From positions 1-64,000 of the forward strand of contig SVOJ01000008.1 of assembly GCA_015066385.1 (NCBI GenBank): a stretch of DNA of 64,000 bases, in the 5' to 3' direction. Shown here piece by piece: positions 27,498-31,216 of this stretch; the first letter of the stretch is position 1; each line of letters starts with the position of its first letter. The stretch is from Oscillospiraceae bacterium (lineage in GTDB: Bacteria; Bacillota; Clostridia; Oscillospirales; Acutalibacteraceae). Below the pieces are notes generated by a model, which saw only the letters and a program-made list of their open reading frames with translations, was not told where the DNA came from and made no database searches. The position numbers were made by a program, and so were the translations under genes.

Positions 27498-27516
27498 AAA
27501 ATAAAACCGATTTGCA

Positions 27517-27545
27517 TTGACAAACCGGGTGAAAATGATTATAAT
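27517..27545 (+). promoter_or_regulatory. Unit 1 antisense promoter
   Basis: TTGACA-17-TATAAT, then cgtagagg at 27551. Confidence 0.8.
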
Positions 27546-27551
27546 ATAACC

Positions 27552-27647
27552 GTAGAGGCTACCGTTTAAAGCGGTTGGTGCCTTATGTTAATGGTATTTT
27601 TGCATTAACAACCGTCACTTGGCAGAGTGGCGGTTGTTACCTTTTTG
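27552..27647 (+). ncRNA. Predicted antisense RNA, unit 1 (~96 nt)
   Basis: Promoter 27517-27545; terminator hairpin 27607-27638 plus CTTTTTG. Confidence 0.65.
27607..27646 (+). terminator. Unit 1 antisense RNA terminator
   Basis: aacaaccgtcact-tggcag-agtggcggttgtt then U-tract ctttttg. Confidence 0.85.
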
Positions 27648-27710
27648 CTTAAACTTGATATGTATAGTAAAAGTGAAATTACCAACATGAAAAGTCAAAG
27701 TGATGGGCAT
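27615..27710 (-). CDS. 31-aa peptide MPITLTFHVGNFTFTIHIKFKQKGNNRHSAK (putative type I toxin-like)
   Basis: Conserved in three local copies; SD aaaggaggtgag 5' of ATG. Confidence 0.7.
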   Translation of the reverse strand: MPITLTFHVGNFTFTIHIKFKQKGNNRHSAK

Positions 27711-27718
27711 TTGTCTCA

Positions 27719-27732
27719 CCTCCTTTCGGAGG
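27719..27732 (-). promoter_or_regulatory. SD-sequestering hairpin CCTCC-GAAA-GGAGG, unit 1
   Basis: Perfect 5-bp stem with GNRA loop directly on the SD. Confidence 0.75.
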
Positions 27733-27775
27733 ATTGACACCAACCGCCTTTTAAGCCGCCTCTACGATCGGCATA

Positions 27776-27804
27776 AGTATACCGCTTGTGACGGCTTTTG
27801 TCAA
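27776..27804 (-). promoter_or_regulatory. Unit 1 sense promoter
   Basis: Minus strand TTGACA-17-TATACT. Confidence 0.75.
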
Positions 27805-28686
27805 TTATTCATTTTGTAACATTCTGAAAATTTCTTCTTCATTGTCGCATTTATCATAATCACCAATCAACTTTCCTTGATAGTGATATTTGATACCCTT
27901 TTGTTTATTTTTTAATACACATTCAGCAAGTGAATGAACATCATACTGTTTTGCAAAAGCAGCAAATGCCCTGATACGCATTTTGTCAAGCATAGAACCG
28001 TTGCACGGAAAGTCAACACATTCCCAACAACCGTTCAGATTTTGTTGTCTGCAGCAGTTGTAGTTTTTGCACCATCCGTGCATTTCACAGCCGCCTTCCT
28101 GACAGCCGACACAGGTTGCATCGTGCTCACATACGCAGCAGGCAAGGCCGCAATATGCGATCGGGGAGCGTCTTTTTCTTGCATAATAATAACCACCGGG
28201 ACGGAAATCATTGGTCAGAACAAAACTGAACTTTTTTACCGTGTCGGTGCGCATGGCAAATGCAGGCAGCACCTTGATGCACATGGTCCGCACATCAAAA
28301 TCCGTATAAAAATGATGCACGGCGCAGGTCAACAACTCACTGAAATATGTCGGTGTTTCATACGCAGAACATAAGTCAATCCGCAATACACCAAATTCGC
28401 CACCGAAAATTTCAACCGTACCGATTGCCTTGTCGATACTTTTGTCCACTACGGCAAAACGCACATATCGCTGTTGTTCATATTCCGACAGCCAGAATAA
28501 AATTGCCGCTTCCATTTCTGCAACGCTTTCAAAATAAAAACCGCTTGTGCATGCATCAGCATTCATCCGTGCGACCGACTCTTTGTCTGCATAACATTTC
28601 AAAAGGTCTTCGGCATCGTGCAGAGAAACAAGGCGCAGCATAAAACTTTCTGTTTCATAAGACGGACAATGAATATACGGGTTCAT
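27805..28686 (-). CDS. GNAT acetyltransferase-like domain fused to DUF3795-like Cys-rich domain
   Basis: N-terminal GNAT-like fold sequence; CGLACCVCEHDATCVGCQEGGCEMHGWCKNYNCCRQQNLNGCWEC. Confidence 0.7.
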   Translation of the reverse strand: MNPYIHCPSYETESFMLRLVSLHDAEDLLKCYADKESVARMNADACTSGFYFESVAEMEAAILFWLSEYEQQRYVRFAVVDKSIDKAIGTVEIFGGEFGVLRIDLCSAYETPTYFSELLTCAVHHFYTDFDVRTMCIKVLPAFAMRTDTVKKFSFVLTNDFRPGGYYYARKRRSPIAYCGLACCVCEHDATCVGCQEGGCEMHGWCKNYNCCRQQNLNGCWECVDFPCNGSMLDKMRIRAFAAFAKQYDVHSLAECVLKNKQKGIKYHYQGKLIGDYDKCDNEEEIFRMLQNE

Positions 28687-28788
28687 GCAAATCTCCTTAT
28701 TAAAAAAGAACATTTGTTCTATTTTACTTTGAATATACTACATTCTGTTTTACTTGTCAATACAAATTAACAAACTTTTTCCGAAATA

Positions 28789-28817
28789 TTGACAAAATCC
28801 GCTTGTCGGAATATAAT
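28789..28817 (+). promoter_or_regulatory. Unit 2 sense promoter
   Basis: TTGACA-17-TATAAT. Confidence 0.85.
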
Positions 28818-28861
28818 AATTCCGATCGTAGAGGCGGCTTAAAAGGCGGTTGGTGTCAGAT

Positions 28862-28875
28862 CCTCCGAAAGGAGG
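28862..28875 (+). promoter_or_regulatory. SD-sequestering hairpin, unit 2
   Basis: cctccgaaaggagg, 8 nt before ATG 28884. Confidence 0.75.
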
Positions 28876-28883
28876 TGAGACAT

Positions 28884-28973
28884 ATGCCCATTACTTTAAC
28901 ATTCCATATTTGTAACATAACGATTACAATAAGAATTAAGGTAAAAAGCAACAACCGCCACTCTGCCAAGTGA
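28884..28973 (+). CDS. 29-aa peptide MPITLTFHICNITITIRIKVKSNNRHSAK (putative type I toxin-like)
   Basis: ATG with strong SD, conserved in three copies. Confidence 0.75.
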   Translation: MPITLTFHICNITITIRIKVKSNNRHSAK

Positions 28974-29035
28974 CGGTTGTTTAACAAAAAATATTTAACA
29001 ATCAGACACTAACCGCTTTAAACGGTAGCCTCTAC
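28943..29035 (-). ncRNA. Predicted antisense RNA, unit 2 (~93 nt)
   Basis: Promoter minus 29042-29070 (TTGACA-17-TATAAT); hairpin 28950-28981 and minus-strand U-tract. Confidence 0.65.
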
Positions 29036-29041
29036 GGTTAC

Positions 29042-29070
29042 ATTATAGCCAATTGCTTCCGATTTGTCAA
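29042..29070 (-). promoter_or_regulatory. Unit 2 antisense promoter
   Basis: Minus strand TTGACA-17-TATAAT. Confidence 0.85.
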
Positions 29071-29099
29071 TGCAGATCGGAAGTTTATTTTTATCTTTT
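29056..29099 (+). terminator. Unit 2 sense-strand terminator overlapping antisense -35
   Basis: cttccgat-12 nt-atcggaag followed by tttatttttatctttt. Confidence 0.75.
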
Positions 29100-29107
29100 C
29101 CGAAATA

Positions 29108-29136
29108 TTGACAAATATCGATACAAGCGGTATATT
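29108..29136 (+). promoter_or_regulatory. Unit 3 sense promoter
   Basis: TTGACA-17-TATATT. Confidence 0.75.
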
Positions 29137-29200
29137 TGACCTGATCGTAGAGGCGGCTTAGGGCGGTTGGTGTCAATTCCTCCGAAAGGAGGTGAGACAT

Positions 29201-29296
29201 GTGCCTGTAACTTTGACTTTTCATGTTGGTAATTTTACTTTTACTATACATATCAAGTTTAAGCAAAAAGGTAACAACCGCCACCCTGGCCGGTGA
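29201..29296 (+). CDS. 31-aa peptide (V/M)PVTLTFHVGNFTFTIHIKFKQKGNNRHPGR, GTG start
   Basis: Same frame and SD position as copies 1 and 2; ATG replaced by GTG. Confidence 0.6.
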   Translation: MPVTLTFHVGNFTFTIHIKFKQKGNNRHPGR

Positions 29297-29358
29297 CGGT
29301 TGTTCAATAAAAAAATTTAACAACTAAGACACTAACCGCTTTAAACGGTAGCCTCTAC
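29265..29358 (-). ncRNA. Predicted antisense RNA, unit 3 (~94 nt)
   Basis: Minus-strand promoter 29365-29393 (TTGACA-17-TATAAT) and central terminator hairpin. Confidence 0.65.
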
Positions 29359-29364
29359 GGTTAT

Positions 29365-29393
29365 ATTATAGTCAATTGCTTCCGATTTGTCAA
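29365..29393 (-). promoter_or_regulatory. Unit 3 antisense promoter
   Basis: Minus strand TTGACA-17-TATAAT. Confidence 0.85.
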
Positions 29394-29413
29394 TGCAGAT
29401 CGGAAGTTTTTTG
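29379..29413 (+). terminator. Unit 3 sense-strand terminator
   Basis: cttccgat...atcggaag then tttttt. Confidence 0.75.
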
Positions 29414-31216
29414 TTATGTAAACTGTGAATTGTAGAGTGTGCTGTAGAATCCGCCGAGTTGCAGCAGTTCTTCGTGGTTGCCGTGCTCGGTGATTTCACC
29501 GTTCTGCACCACAAGAATGGTGTCGGCATTCTGAATGGTGGAAAGTCTGTGGGCGATCACAAAGCAGGTTCGGCCCTGCATCAGCTCGTTCATGGCATCC
29601 CTGATCTGTATTTCGGTTCTTGAGTCAACATTGGAAGTCGCTTCGTCGAGAATCAGCATGGGGGCATCCGACAAAAAGGCACGGGCAATGGTGATGAGCT
29701 GTTTTTGCCCCTTTGAAATGTTCACCCCGTCATCGGATAAAACCGTGTCATATCCGTCGGGCAGACTCTCTATATAACGGTCGATTCTGGCGGCTTTTGC
29801 GGCGGAACGGACCTCTTCTTCTGTTGCATCTTCTCTGCCGTAGGCAATGTTTTCAAACACCGTGCCGTGGAACAGCCATGTATCCTGCAATACCATGGTA
29901 AAACTCTTACGTAGGTCTGCACGTTTAATTTGCATGGACGGAATGCCGTCAATGCGGATTTCGCCCGATTGCGGATCGTAAAAGCGCATCAAGAGGTTGA
30001 TGATCGTTGTTTTTCCTGCCCCTGTCGGACCTACGATGGCAACGGTTGTGCCGGGTTGTGCCGTTACGGAAATGTGTTTGAGGATTGGTTTTTCGGGCAC
30101 ATAAGCGAAGGACACATCGTCAAGCACCGCTTCACCCCGCACATTTTCAAGAGGTTGTGCATCTTCTGCATCGGTAGGTTCGCTCGGTTCATCGAGAATA
30201 CGGAACACCCGCTCCGCCGCCGAGAATGCCGACTGAAATTCATGCAGAATATTTGAAAATTCGTTGATCGGCCCTGCAAACTTGCGGGAGTATTGCACAA
30301 ACTGTGCCACGCCGCCTAATGTGATGAACATGGCAGACCCCGCCGCCACGGCACCGCTTTGTGAGTTCATATACAAAATACCGCCGAAAATGGCAACCAG
30401 CGCAATGGAAATGTTGTTGATGAGGTTGATGCTCGGGAACAGCAATGCCGCACTGTATTCGGCATTGTAGTAGGCATCCATGGCTTCTTCGTTGCGTTTG
30501 TTGAAGCGGTCGGAAATCACATCCTGCCTGCCGTAGGCTTCGATGCTTCTTGCACCCGACAGCATTTCTTCCGCATAGCCGTTGAGCTCGCCGTATTTTT
30601 TGCTTCGTTTGCTGAACAGCGGCCGCACCTTTTTGGAACGGTAGCGGGTGAACAGCACCGAAACGGGCACGGTGAACACAAAAATGAGGATCATCGGCTT
30701 TGAAATATTCCACATGAAAATCAACGAGCCGATGACGGTGTAAATGCTTGTCATAACCTGCACAAGGTCATGCGAAAGGGTGCTGTTGACGGTGTCTATG
30801 TCGTAGGACAGGTGGCTGATGATGTCCCCCGTGTGATTGGTGTCAAAATAATTGACAGGCAGGGTGTTGAGCTTTTCAAACAACTCTTTTCGCATTTTGT
30901 AAGTGATTTTCTGGCTTAAGTGAATCATAATCACCGCAAGGATGTAGGACAGCCCTGCCGACAGCGCATAGCAGACGATCATTTTGATGACATTCACCCA
31001 CACCGCATCAAAATCGACACCGCTTGCAAGTTCAATCGCATCAATTGCCGCACCCGAATAGCGAGGGCCCAGCAGGGAAAGCTGATTGGAAAGAAGCGTG
31101 AACACAATGGCAGGTATAAATAAGTGCCATTGTTGCAACACGTATTTTCCCAATCGTATGAAAATGCCTTTGTTATCGCGTTTGCGCACGGGTGTCTTTT
31201 CTTTTTTCTCAGTCAA
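29414..31216 (-). CDS. ABC transporter, fused permease/ATPase (multidrug-type), second half of heterodimer; start uncertain (TTG)
   Basis: GPTGAGKTTIINLLMRFYDP, ISKGQKQLITIARAFLSDAPMLILDEATS. Confidence 0.9.
   Translation of the reverse strand: MTEKKEKTPVRKRDNKGIFIRLGKYVLQQWHLFIPAIVFTLLSNQLSLLGPRYSGAAIDAIELASGVDFDAVWVNVIKMIVCYALSAGLSYILAVIMIHLSQKITYKMRKELFEKLNTLPVNYFDTNHTGDIISHLSYDIDTVNSTLSHDLVQVMTSIYTVIGSLIFMWNISKPMILIFVFTVPVSVLFTRYRSKKVRPLFSKRSKKYGELNGYAEEMLSGARSIEAYGRQDVISDRFNKRNEEAMDAYYNAEYSAALLFPSINLINNISIALVAIFGGILYMNSQSGAVAAGSAMFITLGGVAQFVQYSRKFAGPINEFSNILHEFQSAFSAAERVFRILDEPSEPTDAEDAQPLENVRGEAVLDDVSFAYVPEKPILKHISVTAQPGTTVAIVGPTGAGKTTIINLLMRFYDPQSGEIRIDGIPSMQIKRADLRKSFTMVLQDTWLFHGTVFENIAYGREDATEEEVRSAAKAARIDRYIESLPDGYDTVLSDDGVNISKGQKQLITIARAFLSDAPMLILDEATSNVDSRTEIQIRDAMNELMQGRTCFVIAHRLSTIQNADTILVVQNGEITEHGNHEELLQLGGFYSTLYNSQFT

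Follow-up and report, generated by a model that had tools for sequence, protein, structure and literature searches.

The hairpin CCTCC-GAAA-GGAGG, found upstream of three small ORFs in the 64,000-nucleotide stretch of DNA analysed here (the window), belongs to a larger cassette with predicted antisense regulation. Judged from its sequence and by analogy with characterised loci, this cassette is probably a chromosomal type I toxin–antitoxin-like system, with expression and toxicity inferred. Its best reading is an undescribed type I family, regulated like par/Fst and bsrG/SR4, in which the usual toxin is a cationic beta-hairpin. In the cassette, a repeated unit of about 270 bases, a sigma-70 promoter and a leader come first; next are the SD hairpin and an ORF of 29–31 codons, with a terminator hairpin over the end of the ORF, and then a near-perfect opposing promoter. 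In the copy W2, the 60-nt leader holds the segments GATCGTAGAGGC and GGCGGTTGGTGTC as well as the SD hairpin, and inverted copies of both segments form the 3' partners listed in Table 1. Copies W1, on the minus strand, and W3 have the same build.

Table 1. Predicted features of the three cassette copies in the window.
Copy	Feature	Position	Strand	Basis or remark
W2	Sense promoter, TTGACA-17-TATAAT	28789-28817	+	12/12 consensus
W2	Full-length peptide mRNA	28824-29094	+	promoter and terminator scans; ends inferred
W2	Sense intrinsic terminator stem	29055-29084	+	terminator scan
W2	P1 5' arm, GATCGTAGAGGC	28824-28835	+	pairs with 29028-29040
W2	P2 5' arm, GGCGGTTGGTGTC	28845-28857	+	pairs with 29005-29016
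W2	SD-sequestering hairpin, CCTCC-GAAA-GGAGG	28862-28875	+	outer pairs GUGUC 28853-28857 / GACAU 28879-28883
W2	Peptide ORF, MPITLTFHICNITITIRIKVKSNNRHSAK	28884-28973	+	29 codons
W2	Antisense-RNA terminator hairpin	28950-28981	-	overlaps ORF 3' end; U tract corresponds to Lys codons
W2	Antisense RNA, ~95 nt	28942-29038	-	inferred from 12/12 promoter; no transcription data
W2	Antisense promoter, TTGACA-17-TATAAT	29042-29070	-	12/12
W1	Sense promoter, TTGACA-17-TATACT	27776-27804	-	
W1	Peptide mRNA, to terminator stem 27528-27507	27499-27769	-	ends inferred
W1	SD hairpin	27719-27732	-	
W1	Peptide ORF, MPITLTFHVGNFTFTIHIKFKQKGNNRHSAK	27615-27710	-	31 codons; AF2 beta-hairpin
W1	Antisense promoter	27517-27545	+	12/12
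W1	Antisense RNA, terminator stem 27606-27639	27552-27649	+	inferred
W3	Sense promoter, TTGACA-17-TATATT	29108-29136	+	
W3	Peptide mRNA, to terminator stem 29378-29407	29143-29417	+	inferred; sub-threshold Rfam BsrG match 29144-29370
W3	SD hairpin	29179-29192	+	
W3	Peptide ORF, MPVTLTFHVGNFTFTIHIKFKQKGNNRHPGR, GTG start	29201-29296	+	31 codons
W3	Antisense RNA, terminator stem 29304-29273	29263-29358	-	inferred
W3	Antisense promoter	29365-29393	-	12/12

The initial annotation had described three invariant copies of the motif (CCTCCGAAAGGAGG), each preceding a small ORF, with differing bases just outside them, and all of this is borne out: the three copies are exact, and ORFs of 31, 29, and 31 codons follow them. 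Shuffled controls allowing up to two mismatches gave a mean of 0.30 matches, with three reached in 1 of 100 shuffles. The whole genome (3.17 Mb) contains eight exact copies, all within the same type of cassette, and no copy of a reversed control motif. A ninth own-genome copy (L044), bearing a GAGA loop, also lies in such a cassette.

Pattern searches yielded about 30 loci, from gut Clostridia as well as from more distantly related Bacillota. These include members in a sister species (L010/L019 and L012/L028), in other Clostridia MAGs (L021, L024, L030, and L031), in Vescimonas fastidiosa (L047 and L048), in other families of the order (L052, L054, L055, L056, L057, L061, L063, and L068), and, as a distant member elsewhere in the phylum, L037. 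A stricter pattern was present in 7 of 396 genomes of the order, which is a lower bound. Two human-faecal records filed as unverified phage (MT839148.1 and MT835905.1; L049 and L050) are also members; these records contain a T-box leader or an rRNA methyltransferase-like gene, and they are probably pieces of bacterial chromosome rather than phage. Phage or plasmid addiction was considered and dropped: the ‘phage’ records look bacterial, and the 861-kb Vescimonas ‘plasmid’ has nadE, rnhA, and a gene for a polyribonucleotide nucleotidyltransferase. At L053 (genome G660), the same leader and SD hairpin precede a beta-like ORF that starts with TTG and has a uvrD/pcrA-like gene immediately downstream, and the antisense half of the cassette is missing. 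A tRNA scan was empty. Within the window, W2 adjoins a 302-codon gene (27805-28713) with an N-terminus that is GNAT-like by eye.

The annotation had also placed the whole GGAGG within a stem, a structural claim that is supported by calculations for 29 of the collected loci. The unpaired probability of the SD core was at most 0.043 in all 29, compared with means of 0.10–0.50 when only the upstream arm was shuffled. A GNRA loop (GAAA, GAGA, or GGAA) closes the hairpin in 28 of 29 loci, with GCAU in L037, while the stems differ (CCTCC/GGAGG, CTTCC/GGAGG, CCACCC/GGGGGTG, CCCCC/GGGGG, and CACCCC/GGaGGTG) and the outer pairs co-vary, being GUGUC/GACAU in the window copies, GAU/AUC in L001, and UCUCACUUCC/GGAGGUGAGA in L049. 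Arms swapped between loci pair less well than a locus's own arms (11 of 20,000 permutations as good). In the sister-species orthologue of W1, with flanks 92% identical, the arm CCTCC is replaced by CACCCC and the loop is GGAA, and the SD is still hidden, in 12 bp. The right arm together with the loop forms a 12–14-nt complement of the 16S tail, with the 16S sequence taken from established knowledge; the SD site is both very strong and hidden. That the stem silences translation, as the annotation predicted, is inferred without translation data from two precedents: the fst mRNA, in which the SD is sequestered by a 5'-SL (PMC7472228), and the txpA, bsrE, and bsrG RBSs of B. subtilis, which are held in 4–5 GC pairs (PMC6562991). 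A review of B. subtilis describes both devices, such a GC-paired RBS and SD pairing of >11 bp, for type I toxin mRNAs (PMC6562991).

In the mRNA as a whole, two long-range pairings are predicted: P1 joins its 5' end to its 3' region, and P2 joins GGCGGTTGG to CCAACCGC. Own arms score −27.6 kcal/mol versus −20.7 kcal/mol for swapped arms in P1, and −19.1 versus −17.2 kcal/mol in P2. In both cases, 0 of 20,000 permutations were as good, figures that are no strict probability because related loci share partners. The sequence of P1 varies widely while pairing holds (GUCGUAGAGG/CCUCUACGGC, GUAGUCAAGAGG/CCUCUUGAUUAC, CAAUAUAAAC/GUUUAUAUUG, and AAUCAAGGG/CCCUUGAUU); L021 retains it despite a quite different sequence, and compensatory changes occur in the 5'/3' pairing. 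The W2 mRNA as a whole folds at −99.7 kcal/mol (z −9.7). Along the sense strand, a terminator comes after the antisense promoter in 13/13 close copies (0/40 shuffles each), which implies read-through to the 3' arm; between groups of close copies these terminators are mostly of unrelated sequence, their position being conserved more than their sequence. In the Vescimonas-type loci, a terminator scan found no convincing sense terminator beyond the antisense promoter, so read-through and the P1/P2 lock carry less certainty at these loci, where the shared hairpin is the sole convincing one in the sense direction, like that of par.

The antisense promoter matches the consensus at 11–12 of 12 positions in 28 of 29 loci and is often stronger than the sense promoter, which scores 11–12/12 in all close relatives and is weak or unrecognised in L050, L052, L054, and L055. 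Antisense terminators were present in 23 of the 25 loci tested. The predicted antisense RNA of about 95 nt (−35.3 kcal/mol, z −4.4 for W2) is complementary to the 3' half of the mRNA and does not overlap the SD. An antisense gene with its own promoter and terminator that overlaps the peptide mRNA, as expected of a type I locus, is thus present as far as sequence signals go, without expression data. The loop of the antisense terminator differs among paralogues (TGCCAA, TGGCCG, CGGCCA, CGGCAA, and TGGCCA), a plausible, inferred basis for cognate pairing. In V. fastidiosa, a solitary antisense unit without a peptide ORF, consisting of promoter, 5' segment, and strong terminator (L047:1230-1375), sits upstream of two tandem cassettes, possibly as an orphan antitoxin. 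A small U-rich promoter–terminator unit without an evident ORF occurs between two cassettes at L028:5370-5500.

The ORF is under purifying selection, with pN/pS of 0.21–0.25 in the close types, 0.04 in the L055 type, and 0.22 pooled. The other two frames gave 0.83 and 5.09, and selection is confined to the named frame; differences by codon position, summed over three groups, were 114/24/277. The short selected ORF of a type I locus is accordingly identified by selection only, with no translation data. In the peptides, hydrophobic and polar residues alternate along two strands on either side of a two-residue turn, with cross-strand partners on one face. AF2 places the strands at residues 3–9 and 12–18, with pLDDT of about 85 over residues 1–20. 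For W1–W3 the beta-moment is 2.5–2.6 versus a helix-moment of 0.5–0.7, an excess of about 3.7- to 5-fold that 0–1 of 1000 shuffles equalled. The peptide is thus predicted to be a cationic amphipathic beta-hairpin; the W1–W3 peptides lack the hydrophobic alpha-helical transmembrane character of membrane type I toxins. With the peptides as queries, Pfam, NCBIfam, PADLOC, and PHROGs returned nothing above cut-off and no known toxin family, and neither a PDB sequence search nor Foldseek gave anything significant; the designed amphipathic hairpin MAX1 (2n1e) matched at 1.3 A with an E of 4.3 and was rejected. We found no description of these peptides in open-licence literature, and an earlier one may exist elsewhere; nor did the literature searched yield beta-type type I toxins.

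Three loci from one bacterial family (L056, L057, and L068) have the same layout of leader, hairpin, and opposing promoter, the promoters of L068 being read by eye, and carry hydrophobic TM-helix ORFs of 24–29 codons (e.g., MIEGAFTVLVFVLVLYIIREVKEK). These peptides resemble classical type I toxins in appearance only; a Holin_BhlA match to the L056 peptide was sub-threshold (15.1 versus 22.6 bits) and was not accepted. Of the sequence arguments for a type I toxin–antitoxin role, the strongest is that different peptides are exchanged on a single regulatory chassis. We lean, with no more than modest confidence, towards a modular RNA chassis in gut Clostridia and beyond, made up of SD hairpin, 5'-3' lock, and antisense gene, that carries toxins of two unrelated folds: TM helices in one lineage and cationic amphipathic beta-hairpins in most others.

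From the predicted promoters and terminators, the pairing with compensatory change, and the coding selection, all read from the DNA, we propose the following mechanism. The sense promoter would yield an mRNA of about 270 nt with its 5' end locked to its 3' region through P1 and P2 and its SD held in a GC-rich stem of 5 bp capped by a GNRA loop, so that the message would be born translationally silent. The opposing consensus promoter would produce the antisense RNA of about 95 nt, ending at the hairpin over the last codons of the ORF; being fully complementary to the mRNA 3' half, this RNA may direct decay of an RNase III type and keep the mRNA silent. Because it does not overlap the SD, the SD hairpin must do the translational blocking, as in bsrG/SR4. 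On a shortfall of antisense RNA, processing or unfolding could free the SD and allow synthesis of the short cationic amphipathic beta-hairpin peptide, which most likely acts on the cell's own membrane, a suggestion drawn from its fold and charge. Silence of the nascent mRNA, antisense-driven decay, and release on antisense shortage are here inferred from par/Fst and bsrG/SR4, and transcription, the decay route, toxicity, and the target are likewise inferences.

Other readings of the cassette must be considered. A detail that the annotation missed is that GAAAGGAGGTGA also matches, over 12 nt, the complement of the 16S 3' end, taking the established bacterial sequence (16S is absent from the MAG). 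The GAAA identity by itself could thus mean an extended SD, with the upstream CCTCC incidental and the loop dictated by the match of GAAAGGAGGTGATC to 16S. The 12–14-nt complementarity noted above favours this, again by comparison with established knowledge. However, the GAGA and GGAA loops and variant stems of relatives break the 16S match or alter the opposite arm while stem and GNRA loop stay, which argues that the loop is kept for its own sake, and shuffling the upstream arm frees the SD; the idea is scarcely tenable. A riboswitch or attenuator was also dropped, as most copies have no downstream gene. Alternatively, the inverted repeats could be the ends of a non-autonomous, MITE-like mobile or repeat element with the ORF and hairpins as passengers. 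Nine dispersed copies in one genome, two of them in tandem, and the long inverted repeats would fit, as would the absence of segment 27805-28973 (W2 with its adjacent 302-codon gene) from the syntenic region of a sister species (L028), which apart from this is 92% identical. Yet both promoters lie outside the repeats, and their hexamers are kept while the spacers diverge; instead of identical ends, the repeats show compensatory changes and internal loops that are unequal; and the purifying selection on the ORF and the positional conservation of the sense terminator also speak against such an element, which we regard as quite improbable.

A regulated small peptide without toxic function, serving in signalling, antimicrobial activity, or stress, with the hairpin (possibly a thermosensor) and antisense RNA as ordinary control, is unlikely. 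The peptide is conserved and cationic, its copies are chromosomal, and its fold is unlike that of the membrane-acting type I toxins, all treated as alpha-helical in a review (PMC8309996). Against this, no export or immunity genes were apparent next to the own-genome copies examined, a consensus antisense promoter set opposite a silent message is how genes for harmful products are arranged, and the same chassis also carries the TM-helix peptides. The type I toxin–antitoxin reading, which we prefer, has evidence against it as well: there are no RNA or toxicity data, the peptide, which is no transmembrane helix, matches no known toxin family, four loci have a sense promoter that is weak or unrecognised, the missing sense terminator leaves read-through and the lock less certain in the Vescimonas-type loci, and the matches to BsrG fall below cut-off. 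Also counting against it, the own-genome copies lie between housekeeping-type genes (translations judged by eye), with no plasmid or prophage to stabilise seen at them.

If the preferred reading is true, a family of beta-hairpins of 20–31 residues, of which a single genome of uncultured gut Clostridia can hold as many as nine copies, would widen the range of type I toxins. Nothing in Pfam, NCBIfam, PHROGs, PADLOC, or (above cut-off) Rfam matches it, and it would go unnoticed in searches that make a TM helix a requirement. The locus separates translational silence, assigned to the SD hairpin, from antisense action on the 3' half, so the role of each is directly testable by mutation.

Among known systems, the enterobacterial hok/Sok has a silent full-length hok mRNA closed 5'-to-3', and the Ldr/Rdl short-peptide loci of enterobacteria occur in tandem chromosomal copies. 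The cassette shares closure with the former and tandem chromosomal copies with the latter; it differs from both in that no overlapping mok-like leader ORF was seen, the antisense RNA lies at the 3' side, and the peptides are unrelated. In bsrG/SR4 of Bacillus subtilis, and in txpA/RatA and bsrE/SR5, the toxin mRNA is likewise overlapped by the antisense RNA in its 3' half, and the bsrG-type RBS is held in 4–5 GC pairs, as in the cassette, which also shares long SD–16S complementarity with txpA/yonT (PMC6562991). The bsrG group consists of prophage loci (PMC6562991), whereas the cassette copies are dispersed in the chromosome and encode a peptide of beta- rather than alpha-type without similarity to that group. 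Rfam gave no match in the window at the gathering threshold; full-length, sub-threshold BsrG (RF01412) matches were obtained for L021 and W3 (31.0 and 19.8 bits, cut-off 55 bits; E-values 4.6e-4 and 0.055), and an evident chance match, mir-Ro6-3 at L037, scored a similar E.

The par(pAD1)/Fst locus of Enterococcus resembles the cassette in its convergent promoters and its toxin mRNA of about 230 nt for a short peptide (PMC7472228). Further shared features are a terminator hairpin present in the transcripts of both strands, an intramolecular 5' stem-loop that sequesters the SD, and a helix that also holds the 5' end of the mRNA (PMC7472228). The cassette thus has the par/Fst hallmark of convergent promoters with an SD-sequestering 5' stem-loop. 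It departs from par in lacking the direct repeats DRa/DRb, which are crossed by both RNAs and make them complementary at the SD (PMC7472228); it has inverted 5'/3' repeats instead, and its antisense RNA stops short of the SD. Fst is an alpha-helical membrane peptide (PMC7472228), whereas the cassette peptide is a predicted beta-hairpin without sequence match to it, and no Pfam or NCBIfam match to the Fst/Ldr family was found. The locus is predicted from its sequence to work like a type I toxin–antitoxin and is a member of neither Fst/Ldr nor Rfam BsrG.
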